This document shows, one piece after another, positions 40,666 through 62,783 of a DNA stretch of 64,000 nt. Below the pieces are notes generated by a model that was not told the DNA's origin, did no database searches, and saw nothing but the letters and a program-made list of their open reading frames with translations. Both the position numbers and the translations under genes were made by a program. Each line of letters starts with the position of its first letter. The stretch's first letter is position 1. The DNA comes from Dolichospermum flos-aquae CCAP 1403/13F (GTDB taxonomy: Bacteria; Cyanobacteriota; Cyanobacteriia; Cyanobacteriales; Nostocaceae): assembly GCF_012516395.1 (NCBI RefSeq), contig NZ_CP051206.1, positions 372,001 to 436,000 on the forward strand, written 5' to 3'.

Positions 40666-40817
40666 ATGACTGAAGAAAAAATTAGACAGATAGCTTTCTA
40701 CGGCAAGGGCGGTATCGGTAAATCTACCACTTCTCAAAATACTTTAGCCGCTATGGCTGAAATGGGTCAACGCATCATGATCGTAGGTTGCGACCCTAAA
40801 GCTGACTCTACTCGTTT
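40666..40817 (+). CDS. nifH: nifH segment 1 (5' part, codons 1-51)
   Basis: This is the first 152 bp of the nitrogenase Fe-protein gene. It codes [20 protein letters not shown]... through Arg50, including the ATP-binding P-loop GKGGIGKST. After CGT TT the sequence leaves the family. The unexcised frame adds ten foreign residues ([10 protein letters not shown]) and stops at 40848. The break falls inside codon 51, in the 13-bp repeat ACTCTACTCGTTT that recurs at 53788-53800. Confidence 0.96.
40805..40817. repeat. Left direct repeat of nifH element 1
   Basis: ACTCTACTCGTTT is found here and at 53788-53800. Crossing over between the copies gives GACTCTACTCGTTTAATGCT, which reads D-S-T-R-L-M, the normal NifH sequence. 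Confidence 0.95.
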
Positions 40818-40835
40818 TAACAATGTGGACACCTC

Positions 40836-41168
40836 TCACAGCCACTGAGATTTACGAATCGCCGCACCACATACAGGATAAGCATCAACACCGTATAGTT
40901 GACTTTTTTCCTTTCCGCAACCATCACAGATACCCGCACCAATGAACTCGCTTAACCATTCTGATAAATCAATGTCTTCCAGAACCGGTTCACAACTGAG
41001 AAACCGAATCTTCGCAGGGGTTTTGAGCAGATAATAAACGTCTTCAGCGTCTTTCTGTGTGCAAACTGAATACCCCAACCATAGATGATAAAATGGTAAC
41101 TTGAGTTCCGTTTCCTCTAAGAATCTGCAACGCCAATTACAGGTGATCAAGATTTGTTGATTCTTCAT
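40836..41168 (-). pseudogene. DUF5131 (phage Gp37/Gp68-like) C-terminal fragment
   Basis: This 110-codon frame has VCTQKDAEDVYYLLKTPAKI and RFLSCEPVLEDIDL, the conserved blocks of DUF5131. About 150 N-terminal residues of the family are absent. A Cys-x2-Cys pair follows (CDGCGKEK). It ends 19 bp inside the element border. From there to the AAA gene (41169-41426) I see no gene, only an AAGGCGCGTT/AACGCACCTT hairpin at about 41344-41367. Confidence 0.65.
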
Positions 41169-41426
41169 CCTTATCGGGGAATATTACCAATTTTAAGTCC
41201 GTCGGATTTTGTTAGGGATGATGTTTACTGAAAAGTACCTTTAAAATTTTAACTTTTAGATGAATAGATATGTAAATTAGCAATAGTAGGATATGTTAGC
41301 GTAACGCATAATAATTACAAACTAATCATAATTAAAAGCAAAAAGGCGCGTTAAACAACGCACCTTACAGCGACTACATGAATGGCGATCGCACTTTAGT
41401 GAATCCAACCTAGAAGAGCGATCGCA

Positions 41427-42533
41427 CTAATTATATGGGATTTCTTGAGCATTATTAGCTATTGCAAGACTTACCGCTCGTTTTTCTTCTTCATTTAACT
41501 TATGTACAGTAGTATTAGGCTTGACTCGTCGTTTCTTAACAGCATCTAACGCATTTGAAAGATCCCGATAACCTATTCCGCTACCGTTATTCATGGCAAC
41601 TTTTAAGGCTGAATCAATAATCGCATTACGTATATCCCTACCACAGACTTCATCTATTTCAGCAAGTTTCTCGGTAGATACATCTTCTAGAAGTGGCAAG
41701 TTTTTTGGCAGAAGGTTCTGCCAGATGAGATTCCTACAAGTTTGATCTGGCATTGGAAAAAATATATTACGAACTCTAGTCTCAAATGCAGGATCATAGT
41801 TCTCAACTAGATTTGTGGCAAAAACAACAATTCCTCTAAATCTCTCTAGTGAAATTAGTAACTGACTACGCATAGAGTTTATTGCCTGCTCAGATCCTTG
41901 AGTTACATTAGTCAATCTTTTAGATAGCAAGGAATCTGATTCATCAATGAAAAGGACAGCTTTATCACGTTCTGCTGCATAAAAAAGAGCTTCAACGTTT
42001 TTGGGACCCTCTCCATGATACATACTTTCAATCTGAGCATAACTGACCAGTAAAATATTTCTCTCTAAGTAAGAAGCCACTGCGTGTGCAGCCAAAGTTT
42101 TTCCTGTGCCGGGTGAACCATAGAAATTAAGTGCAGAGTAAGGAAATGGTTGTATATTTCTTAATCCCCACTCATCAAACACTAATTTTTCAAGGGCTGA
42201 AATCTTGCTATATATCAGTAGTTCTTCCTTAACTGATTCAGGAACGACTAATTGTTCCATTGAAAAATTTGGCTTTTCGCTACGATATTGCTCCGCTCTT
42301 TCCTCTAGGGAAATAGAATTTGCTTTACTGGCAGACGCATTGTTATTATTTTTGCTCGGAGTTTTGGCAGGGTTTAAATCTACACTTGAGGAAACAATTA
42401 AAGATAAACTTTCTTTTCCTATTTTTTCTAAGTAGTTTTGCCAAGCTGTATATATTCTGGTTTTTAAAACAAGAAAATCTCTTTCATTTTTAGTGGCGTT
42501 TGGTATATTCTGAAGTATAATTTCGCCTTCCAT
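41427..42533 (-). CDS. AAA+ ATPase
   Basis: This 368-residue protein has an N-terminal ~90-residue low-complexity region and an AAA module: Walker A GSPGTGKT (139-146), Walker B AVLFIDESD (192-200), then sensor-1 IVVFATNL and arginine-finger region ETRVRNIFFP. It resembles stand-alone bacterial AAA proteins of the FtsH/spastin type that lack protease or MIT domains. A coding remnant lies upstream on the same strand (42661-42905), which may be what is left of a partner. Function unknown. Confidence 0.75.
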   Translation of the reverse strand: MEGEIILQNIPNATKNERDFLVLKTRIYTAWQNYLEKIGKESLSLIVSSSVDLNPAKTPSKNNNNASASKANSISLEERAEQYRSEKPNFSMEQLVVPESVKEELLIYSKISALEKLVFDEWGLRNIQPFPYSALNFYGSPGTGKTLAAHAVASYLERNILLVSYAQIESMYHGEGPKNVEALFYAAERDKAVLFIDESDSLLSKRLTNVTQGSEQAINSMRSQLLISLERFRGIVVFATNLVENYDPAFETRVRNIFFPMPDQTCRNLIWQNLLPKNLPLLEDVSTEKLAEIDEVCGRDIRNAIIDSALKVAMNNGSGIGYRDLSNALDAVKKRRVKPNTTVHKLNEEEKRAVSLAIANNAQEIPYN

Positions 42534-42660
42534 GTTGTCCCCTAAATTTTTGTATTGACAATAAAAAGTAGCCCTTAATAATTTCTATTTTCTTAACTTT
42601 ATGTAGGACTACTCTCATACATAAAGTGTTACACAGTTGCCAATTCACTTTTACTCAGCC

Positions 42661-60747: not shown

Positions 60748-60795
60748 TCCTAGTTTTATAAAATTACTCTTTGCGCCTCTGCGTGAGGCTAACTC

Positions 60796-62223
60796 TTATC
60801 CTAACTCAATTTTTATCAAACTGTGTCCCATCTGCAACCTCAATCTTTCATTGTCAATTCTCAACCTCTCATTTTCCTGTTCCAATCTAATTACAATATC
60901 TTGTAGATCTTCAACTTTTGATTTTTTCTTAATTGCTTCCTCAATTGCCACCTTGCGATTTTCTAGACTAAACCACTTTTGATAAATAGATGTGTGCATA
61001 TTCACAGAATGACCCAAATTATCAGCAGCAGCTTTAATCGGAATCCCCATCAAATGCGCTCGAATTGCCCAACCATGCCGCAAATCATAGGGTTGAAAAG
61101 GAATCCCCACAAATCTAAACCATCTATCTGTACCATGTCGCGCAGAGTTGATTTCTCGACTGGTAACTTTATCTTTAATTTTTGCTTTTAATAATTCAAT
61201 TGCTTCGGTATCCGTGGTTAAATTAAAACTTTCCACCCAACGCGGATATAATGGTAAAGCTTCCCTTTCTCCCGTTTTACATTCTTGATTCACACGCCAT
61301 GTATTCATCGTATTTTCTGATGATAACCACCAATTTAAATCAGGATTAACAAAAATTTCAATCGGTCTTAATCCATAGGTTGCTAACATCCCATAAACCC
61401 ATCTCCACAATTTCCAATTATTTCTATCTTCCCTAGTTGTTAACTTACTAGAACGATTAATTGCATAGGTTTCAAACTTGAGATATTCTTGTTCTATGTC
61501 TGCATCAGTGGGTATATCACGTTTACGTTGAGAAATAGCCTTAATTTTTAAATTACTTAATTCTGGAACTTCTAAACCAGAACATTTACATAAAACCCTA
61601 ATTACCTTAATTAATTCATTTTTTACACTATCGGAAGATGGGCAAAATTTCACAGCATCAATAAAATTGGCATTTATTGCTAATTTATCCTTTGGCAAAT
61701 GTGTTTTAGCAATATAGAAATAACTATTAAAAGTATTGTTACTTTTGAGAGTCCGTTTCCTAGTTTGGAAATAATTGTTTTCAAACTCAGAAACCAACTC
61801 ACCTATCGTGATAAATTTCGCTTTAAATCTAGTTTTGCCTAAATATTTATCAGTCCAAATAAATTGTTTTCTGGCAATTAATTTGCCTAACTCATTAGCT
61901 TCTTCTTCTGCCGTATTTAAACCATCAAAACTAAAAGGAATACCCAAAGAAATATCATATTGCTTTGTGCCGCTACCGTTTTTATCAATATCACCTGGTT
62001 TAATAGGTAAGGTAGTTCTCAACTGTAATGAATTGCCGGATTTTCTCACAGAAACACTCACCCTAGCGGCTCTTAGTCTAGCATTAATTGCCTTTAATTC
62101 TGTTGTCAGTTTTGCCGTTAAGTGATTTTCCTGGTTTTCTACTGCTTGCATTCTGCCTAAATATCCCCCGTCGGTAATAGCTGTTTGGTGAAAATCGGCA
62201 AATGCTTCCTGTGTTCTGTCCAT
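60796..62223 (-). CDS. Tyrosine recombinase, XisA/XisC-like
   Basis: This 475-residue excisase has Arg286 (YGLRPIEI), Lys316 (CKTGEREA), box II PYDLRHGWAIR with Tyr379-x-x-Arg382 instead of His-x-x-Arg, His405 (NLGHS) and nucleophile Tyr414 (TSIYQKW). Residues 436-466 form a leucine-rich coiled coil after the catalytic domain. The protein is of the type that excises the nifD and hupL elements of Anabaena. Its position just inside the right border and its inward direction make it the excisase of element 2. Confidence 0.92.
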   Translation of the reverse strand: MDRTQEAFADFHQTAITDGGYLGRMQAVENQENHLTAKLTTELKAINARLRAARVSVSVRKSGNSLQLRTTLPIKPGDIDKNGSGTKQYDISLGIPFSFDGLNTAEEEANELGKLIARKQFIWTDKYLGKTRFKAKFITIGELVSEFENNYFQTRKRTLKSNNTFNSYFYIAKTHLPKDKLAINANFIDAVKFCPSSDSVKNELIKVIRVLCKCSGLEVPELSNLKIKAISQRKRDIPTDADIEQEYLKFETYAINRSSKLTTREDRNNWKLWRWVYGMLATYGLRPIEIFVNPDLNWWLSSENTMNTWRVNQECKTGEREALPLYPRWVESFNLTTDTEAIELLKAKIKDKVTSREINSARHGTDRWFRFVGIPFQPYDLRHGWAIRAHLMGIPIKAAADNLGHSVNMHTSIYQKWFSLENRKVAIEEAIKKKSKVEDLQDIVIRLEQENERLRIDNERLRLQMGHSLIKIELG

Positions 62224-62331
62224 ACCCTAGATTTACCCTAATAAAAAAACTGTTCACTCCAGACAATGATTGCGGCAAACATAGTTGAAAATGAACATTT
62301 TCCGGCTTTTAAAATTATCTTATTACTCTTT

Positions 62332-62340
62332 TCCGTGAAG
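62332..62340. repeat. Right direct repeat of nifH element 2
   Basis: This second TCCGTGAAG is followed by GTAAAGCACAAG, which resumes nifH. Confidence 0.92.
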
Positions 62341-62783
62341 GTAAAGCACAAGAAATCTACATCGTTACATCAGGTGAAATGATGGCGATGTATGCTGCAA
62401 ACAACATCGCTCGTGGTGTACTTAAATATGCTCACTCCGGTGGAGTTCGTTTAGGTGGTTTGATCTGTAACAGCCGTAACACAGACCGAGAAATCGAATT
62501 AATTGAAACCTTGGCTGCACGTTTGAACACTCAAATGATTCACTTCGTTCCCCGCGACAATATAGTTCAACACGCTGAACTACGTCGGATGACAGTGAAC
62601 GAGTATGCACCAGAAAGCAAACAAGCTAACGAATACCGCGCACTAGCTAAGAAGATCATCAACAACACTAACCTCACCATCCCTACACCTATCGAAATGG
62701 AAGAGTTGGAAGAATTGTTGATTGAGTTCGGTATTCTTGAAAGCGAAGAAAATGCTGCAAAATTAGTTGGTAAAACAGCATAA
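62341..62783 (+). CDS. nifH: nifH segment 3 (3' part, codons 145-291)
   Basis: These 443 bp encode [20 protein letters not shown]... to the C-terminus LVGKTA and stop. The conserved segment [20 protein letters not shown] is present. With the other two segments the open frame is 876 bp, 291 residues, normal for NifH. An internal ATG at 62379 could produce only a useless fragment before excision. Confidence 0.96.

Follow-up and report, generated by a model that had tools for sequence, protein, structure and literature searches.

In Anabaena sp. 90, nifH lies in three parts of 153, 273 and 444 bp that are separated by elements of 80 and 5.9 kb, and the genome also has nifD and hupL elements (Wang et al. 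2012, PMC3542288). In Nodularia spumigena, nifH1 contains the XisG element, which has the repeat CCGTGAAG and whose activity is reported as demonstrated (PMC3610870). A survey of 101 elements describes 19 in nifH, in six variants, as well as 10 genes with more than one element and one nifD with four (Hilton et al. 2016, PMC4874684). Here we describe the nifH gene of Dolichospermum flos-aquae CCAP 1403/13F and the two elements that split it, within a window of 64,000 nucleotides (positions 372,001 to 436,000 of contig NZ_CP051206.1). A preliminary description of this window knew of no other such "double lock" within one nifH, and the three-part gene of Anabaena sp. 90 contradicts that claim of novelty. 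The double split is a correct and well-measured instance of a known phenomenon, and the remaining interest lies in the attP-like anatomy of the first element, the exchange of cargo, and a 50-residue open reading frame (ORF), orf50. A literature search on nifH or nifD excision in Dolichospermum found no paper.

The pieces, repeats, elements and recombinases are as follows.

40666..40817, + strand: nifH piece 1, 152 bp, codons 1-50 plus two bases; ends in the 13-bp repeat; PF00142 match
40805..40817, + strand: element 1 left repeat, ACTCTACTCGTTT, with the conserved core TCTAC
40818..53800, no strand: element 1, 12,983 bp, XisF-type serine-recombinase element at nifH codon 48
52392..53759, - strand: element 1 serine recombinase (xis), XisF-type, 455 amino acids; PF00239 and PF07508; NF041201 at 531 bits against a cut-off of 375
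53788..53800, + strand: element 1 right repeat, ACTCTACTCGTTT
53801..54081, + strand: nifH piece 2, 281 bp
54073..54081, + strand: element 2 left repeat, TCCGTGAAG, with the conserved core CCGTGAAG
54082..62340, no strand: element 2, 8,259 bp, XisG-type tyrosine-recombinase element
60796..62223, - strand: element 2 tyrosine recombinase, XisG-type, 475 amino acids, with tyrosine in place of the box-II histidine
62332..62340, + strand: element 2 right repeat, TCCGTGAAG
62341..62783, + strand: nifH piece 3, 443 bp, through the stop codon

Joined at the repeats, the three pieces give a nifH of 876 nucleotides, or 291 residues and a stop. The sizes of the pieces and elements, the repeats and the joined frame had all been given in the preliminary description and are exact to the base. 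As a control for chance, we examined 1,475 random pairs of places in the window: an exact repeat of length 10 or more within ±15 bp occurred in none of them, and one of length 9 in two. No second nifH was found in the strain's own genome (5.22 Mb in 2 contigs, 99.96% complete), as had been suggested for checking. The next full-length match, at C1:3131005-3131787, is ChlL: it scores 229 bits against the nifH model, under the cut-off of 394, and 436 bits against DPOR_bchL, above the cut-off.

We consider it very likely that the only nifH found in this heterocyst-type cyanobacterium carries two developmentally excised elements; this confidence concerns the two excisable elements and not the role of orf50. 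Because the two recombinases are unrelated, two independent excisions should be needed, as was first proposed; of that proposal the serine and tyrosine recombinases stand, and the novelty does not. No intact nifH was found elsewhere in the genome, which agrees with it. Element 1 lies at nifH codon 48, in a site that resembles an attB. In the mechanism that we envisage, the XisF-type large serine recombinase would join the TCTAC cores, which would restore nifH and release a 12,983-bp circle with an attP-like junction. The orf50 protein may be a partner in this excision. The tyrosine recombinase would remove element 2 at CCGTGAAG. NifH could be produced only once both elements had left, and the heterocyst is the most likely place for this.

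Across 16 genomes of the genus, the double split is common: six have both splits (G000, G001, G004, G005, G006 and G013), seven have the element 2 split only, one has the element 1 split only (G007), and two have neither (G010 and G014). All four states thus occur among close relatives. One of the genomes with the element 2 split, G015, additionally has a second, unsplit nifH. The recombinases follow the splits closely. An element 1-type recombinase (94-100% identical, or 56% in G001) is present in all seven genomes that are split at codon 48 and in none of the nine others, where G008 has one partial match at 30% without the codon 48 split. With paralogues at 51% identity or less set aside, the element 2 recombinase (80-100%) is present in 13/13 genomes that are split near codon 143 and in 0/3 others.

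The element 1 recombinase has the Resolvase and Recombinase domains, with a borderline zinc ribbon (25.2 bits against a cut-off of 25.3), and it passes the model NF041201 for XisF, the fdxN element recombinase. In this window, the ORF in the fdxN position (our assignment) is open, at 37718-38062, and the element sits in nifH instead. By its type of recombinase and its position, element 1 agrees with the "nifH 150" variant that the survey describes for serine recombinases (PMC4874684). Its repeat lies at nifH 140-152, and comparison within the genus shrinks these 13 bp to a 5-bp core, TCYAC, at nifH 142-146: six of the seven genomes have ACTCTAC together with variable bases, and G001 shares only TCCAC. 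In G004, the left copy of the repeat has TGT and the right copy CGT at the codon of arginine 50, so the crossover precedes this codon if G004 keeps that arginine.

The attP of large serine integrases is described as having inverted arms that flank the crossover (PMC5311408). When the right end of element 1 is placed before its left end, as in a circle, 16 of 25 pairs at the junction are symmetric, and the centre of symmetry lies between nifH 143 and 144. Among 20,000 random places in the window, at least 16 pairs were found in 3 and at least 13 in 122. The junctions of G004, G005, G007 and G013 have 15-17 of 25 pairs, and the diverged element 1 of G001 has 13 with the identical centre. The joined nifH site is asymmetric, with 7-10 of 25 pairs. 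Because the circle junction is symmetric and attP-like, element 1 looks like an insertion of the large-serine-integrase type, and we count this putative attP-like anatomy as new.

Complete copies of element 1 were compared from four genomes, and they measure 12,983, 4,962, 1,768 and 2,685 bp. Of 14 element 1 proteins from the window that were tested, the recombinase is the only one to recur in these copies; orf50, which was not in that set, is present in all four. A fifth element, in G005, is about 101 kb by its coordinates, and the left ends have about 20 bases in common in 5/7 genomes. Thus, from 1.8 to 13.0 kb, the complete copies have the recombinase end in common and little else, which we also count as new. 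The gene xis starts about 41 bp from the end of the element (window 53759-53801). Its promoter therefore probably extends into nifH and would be altered upon excision. In tblastn searches with the recombinase, neither the phage records (441 matched) nor the 5,000 plasmid records listed gave a match of at least 60% identity.

The cargo in the window includes these features.

50847..52073, + strand: IscB RNA-guided endonuclease, cargo of element 1; NF040563 at 438.9 bits against a cut-off of 175
54272..58521, - strand: cargo of element 2, comprising a NO VEIN C-terminal protein, a C-5 cytosine methylase and an Eco57I/N6 methylase-like protein

For the IscB guide RNA, there was no Rfam match at the gathering threshold. 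The cargo of the two elements (45175-50533 and 54272-59501) also includes a PIN-domain protein, weak VapB-, MazF- and RelE-like matches that are below the NCBIfam cut-offs, and pieces of restriction-modification systems. Toxin-like and restriction-modification cargo could put dividing cells that lose an element at a disadvantage.

In its repeat and the type of its recombinase, element 2 matches the XisG/nifH1 element of Nodularia. The original report of activity for that Nodularia element is said to be Vintila et al. 2011. The recombinase of element 2 has a single Pfam match, below the threshold, and when it is aligned to 4a8e, a XerC-like structure, a tyrosine pairs with the box-II histidine and the nucleophilic tyrosine is aligned. 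Tyrosine in place of this histidine is described for XisA, XisC and XisG (PMC3610870). Within the genus, the 9-bp repeat shrinks to the 8 bp of CCGTGAAG, in all 13 split genomes. The 12 complete copies of element 2 range from 4.5 to 8.3 kb, and all of them keep the recombinase while the cargo is mosaic. We do not claim symmetric arms for element 2: at most, two of the four genomes tried showed 11 of 20 pairs, centred on the core's left edge and without a control.

Next to the element 1 recombinase gene is a small ORF.

52256..52408, + strand: orf50, a 50-residue ORF and candidate directionality factor, convergent with xis and overlapping its 3' end by 17 nucleotides

This ORF is present in all six close copies of element 1, and in G001 at 42% identity. 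More broadly, we examined 34 distinct loci with XisF-type recombinases (30 fetched recombinase matches plus five places in earlier loci, minus one duplicate, L118/L141). A complete orf50 is found at 29 of these, with recombinase identities down to about 45%; three more (L149, L151 and L152) have a weak or by-eye match. The five small-ORF queries were taken from loci among the 34, and those loci match themselves. Since differences within the genus are too few for measuring selection, we used diverged pairs. The proportion of synonymous differences (pS) exceeds that of nonsynonymous differences (pN) in 12/12 chosen pairs, two of which are nearly uninformative (pS 0.04 and pN 0.03 for L132/L134; 0.08 and 0.02 for L135/L137). 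In the five most diverged pairs, pS is 0.57-0.79 and pN is 0.07-0.22; for instance, L123/L129 has a pS of 0.79 and a pN of 0.13, and L130/L131 has 0.57 and 0.07. As pS is above pN in the diverged pairs, orf50 is coding, and it is under selection.

Four orf50 sequences had no credible match in Pfam, NCBIfam or PHROG, so we do not assign orf50 to a known family. Beside more distant recombinases (36-38% identity) near nifE or nifD, six of eight loci have a convergent ORF of 63-88 residues in the corresponding position. When orf50 was compared by profile with such ORFs from next to nifE-type recombinases, the match was weak, with a probability of 6.5%, and we do not call them homologous. In the 1,768-bp element of G006, orf50 is the sole ATG-started ORF of at least 50 residues outside xis.

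The SP-beta prophage interrupts spsM, and the gene is restored when the prophage is excised during development, for which SprA and the 58-residue SprB are sufficient (Abe et al. 2014, PMC4191935). By this analogy, and from its position and conservation, orf50 could be the excision partner, or directionality factor, of the element 1 recombinase, a reading that we advance tentatively. Several observations weigh against it. Two of the 34 loci, L140 and L146, had no orf50 that we could find; the loci are not independent, as six are near-identical copies from the same genus; and the strain's own genome has 14 XisH and 20 XisI matches, so that a directionality factor could come from elsewhere.

The fdxN element of XisF has XisH and XisI as accessory factors. 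The main rival to orf50 is XisI from elsewhere in the genome: element 1 might be excised with XisH/XisI encoded there, with orf50 doing something else, for example regulating xis expression, or being a passenger. We regard this as close to an even call. For the Anabaena/Nostoc element, XisI is given as the directionality factor (PMC5311408), and besides the many matches in the genome, the ~101-kb element of G005 spans a XisH/XisI pair. Both families are strongly multiplied in genomes of the genus. On the other hand, tblastn with seven XisH/XisI queries from the strain's own genome found neither in the window, none of the 13 XisH and 10 XisI places listed lies there, and the search found none within element 1. 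Nor were they found in any of the four complete element 1 sequences, all of which have orf50, and orf50 is also found with related recombinases whose identity is as low as about 45%.

If orf50 does act with the recombinase, we can speculate further, and more doubtfully, that it is the first member of a new family, in which very small directionality factors accompany the XisF-type recombinases of elements that interrupt nif genes. The 1.8-kb element of G006 would hence be a complete natural excision unit, with one integrase, a 50-residue factor and two attachment (att) sites, and it would accept unrelated cargo, as much as ~100 kb, by exchange. Going by a limited literature search, we provisionally count orf50 and its link to XisF-type recombinases as new. 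The smallest element narrows the needs of excision to the recombinase and perhaps one tiny gene. This makes the source of the direction of excision, and of its control by cell type, directly testable, and it could give an integrase/directionality pair for DNA engineering.

It is very unlikely that the elements no longer excise, which would leave nifH as a dead, fragmented gene in a strain that cannot fix nitrogen with it. Close relatives are present in every split state, as this would allow. The joined nifH (positions 1-870) has no internal stops in any of the 16 genomes, however, and when the unsplit gene of G010 is compared with those of the other 15 genomes, the ratio of nonsynonymous to synonymous substitution rates (dN/dS) is 0-0.17. 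The joined gene is under purifying selection, as expected if it is reassembled. Also, both recombinases in the window are full-length and open, and the repeat cores are conserved. An assembly artefact, which the preliminary description had named as a way for its reading to fail, is practically ruled out, as the double split is present in 6/16 genomes of the genus (this one included), with splits at identical bases in other genomes of the genus and in the published strain Anabaena sp. 90.

Developmental excision of both elements has its own difficulties. On a tree built on nifH alone, the four element states need 9 changes (the minimum is 3), which is no better than shuffled labels, and all four states are found within a single clade of five closely related genes. 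Because the states are so scattered, the elements are evidently also gained or lost outside development. The circle junction of G006 has just 11/25 symmetric pairs, with its left arm altered.

To look beyond the genus, we followed up 24 genomes from other genera, namely those without a near-full-length nifH among the matches listed for 172 genomes. (We left out G039 and G046, with a ChlL-level match only, and G145, which is 54% complete.) In these, nifH is split at the element 2 site in nine, near codon 135-139 in eight, at the element 1 site in one and near codon 160 in one; five have several breaks. In the codon 135-139 group, the matches listed for G057 and G085 cover the 3' piece only. The nifH of G156 is in pieces 1-50, 47-101, 93-139 and 134-256, which implies at least three breaks. 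G129 has pieces 1-48, 48-139 and 136-263, or at least two breaks, with the middle piece inverted. The 3' ends of nifH were not found in G156 or G129. Serine recombinases lie beside the nifH pieces of both genomes, along with a XisG-like one in G156, where the frames of the first serine recombinase are broken as well (loci L116, L117 and L118, from G156 and G129).

At 23 loci from 11 genera, the recombinase is at least 52% identical to that of element 1, and 22 of these have the edge of a nifH piece at codon 45-51, at most 900 bp upstream. The recombinase and the nifH piece are separated by about 260 bp of other DNA at L132 and L140, and L143 has no nifH piece. Elements of this type are found in both orientations at one nifH site (L010, L116, L133, L139, L140 and L141 versus L123-L131): xis either follows the 5' piece and reads in the direction of nifH, or precedes the 3' piece and reads in the opposite direction.

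Other genes in this genome are interrupted as well. The nifD of the same operon is split into pieces about 22.5 kb apart (L008:947-2341 and L009; G000:C1:434000-473999), with a XisA-like recombinase at L009:1202-2503. hupL appears to be split too (G000:C1:2072645-2072878 and 2095662-2096462), and a XisG-related recombinase lies between its pieces (C1:2093850-2095208). Thus, the genome appears to have the same interrupted set as Anabaena sp. 90 (nifH, nifD and hupL). Elsewhere in the window, a distant tyrosine recombinase (23881-24972; 34% identical to the element 2 enzyme and without a Pfam or NCBIfam match) adjoins a tRNA gene (25117-25190), like an integrated island.

Among the described systems, Anabaena sp. 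90 is the most similar as a whole: it shares the three-part nifH, the nifD and hupL elements, and recombinases on the opposite strand, and it differs in the sizes of its nifH elements, 80 and 5.9 kb instead of 12,983 and 8,259 bp. Its first element is included in the nifH-150 variant of the survey (PMC4874684), which resembles element 1 in having a serine recombinase and in its position, nifH 150 ± 7 in the survey's own numbering. That variant is described there from three xis genes, compared to the 22 of 23 loci, 11 genera and both orientations here. The Nodularia nifH1/XisG element resembles element 2 in its 8-bp repeat, CCGTGAAG, in its XisA/XisC-type recombinase with tyrosine for histidine, and in its putative DNA modification methylase cargo. 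The Nodularia element is 5.2 kb instead of 8.3 kb and has fewer cargo genes, and we liken the two by their repeat and type of recombinase and not by the sequence of XisG. Finally, SprA/SprB of SP-beta resemble the G006 element in pairing a large serine recombinase with one tiny ORF; SP-beta is a Bacillus prophage, and its likeness to element 1 is one of arrangement and not of sequence.

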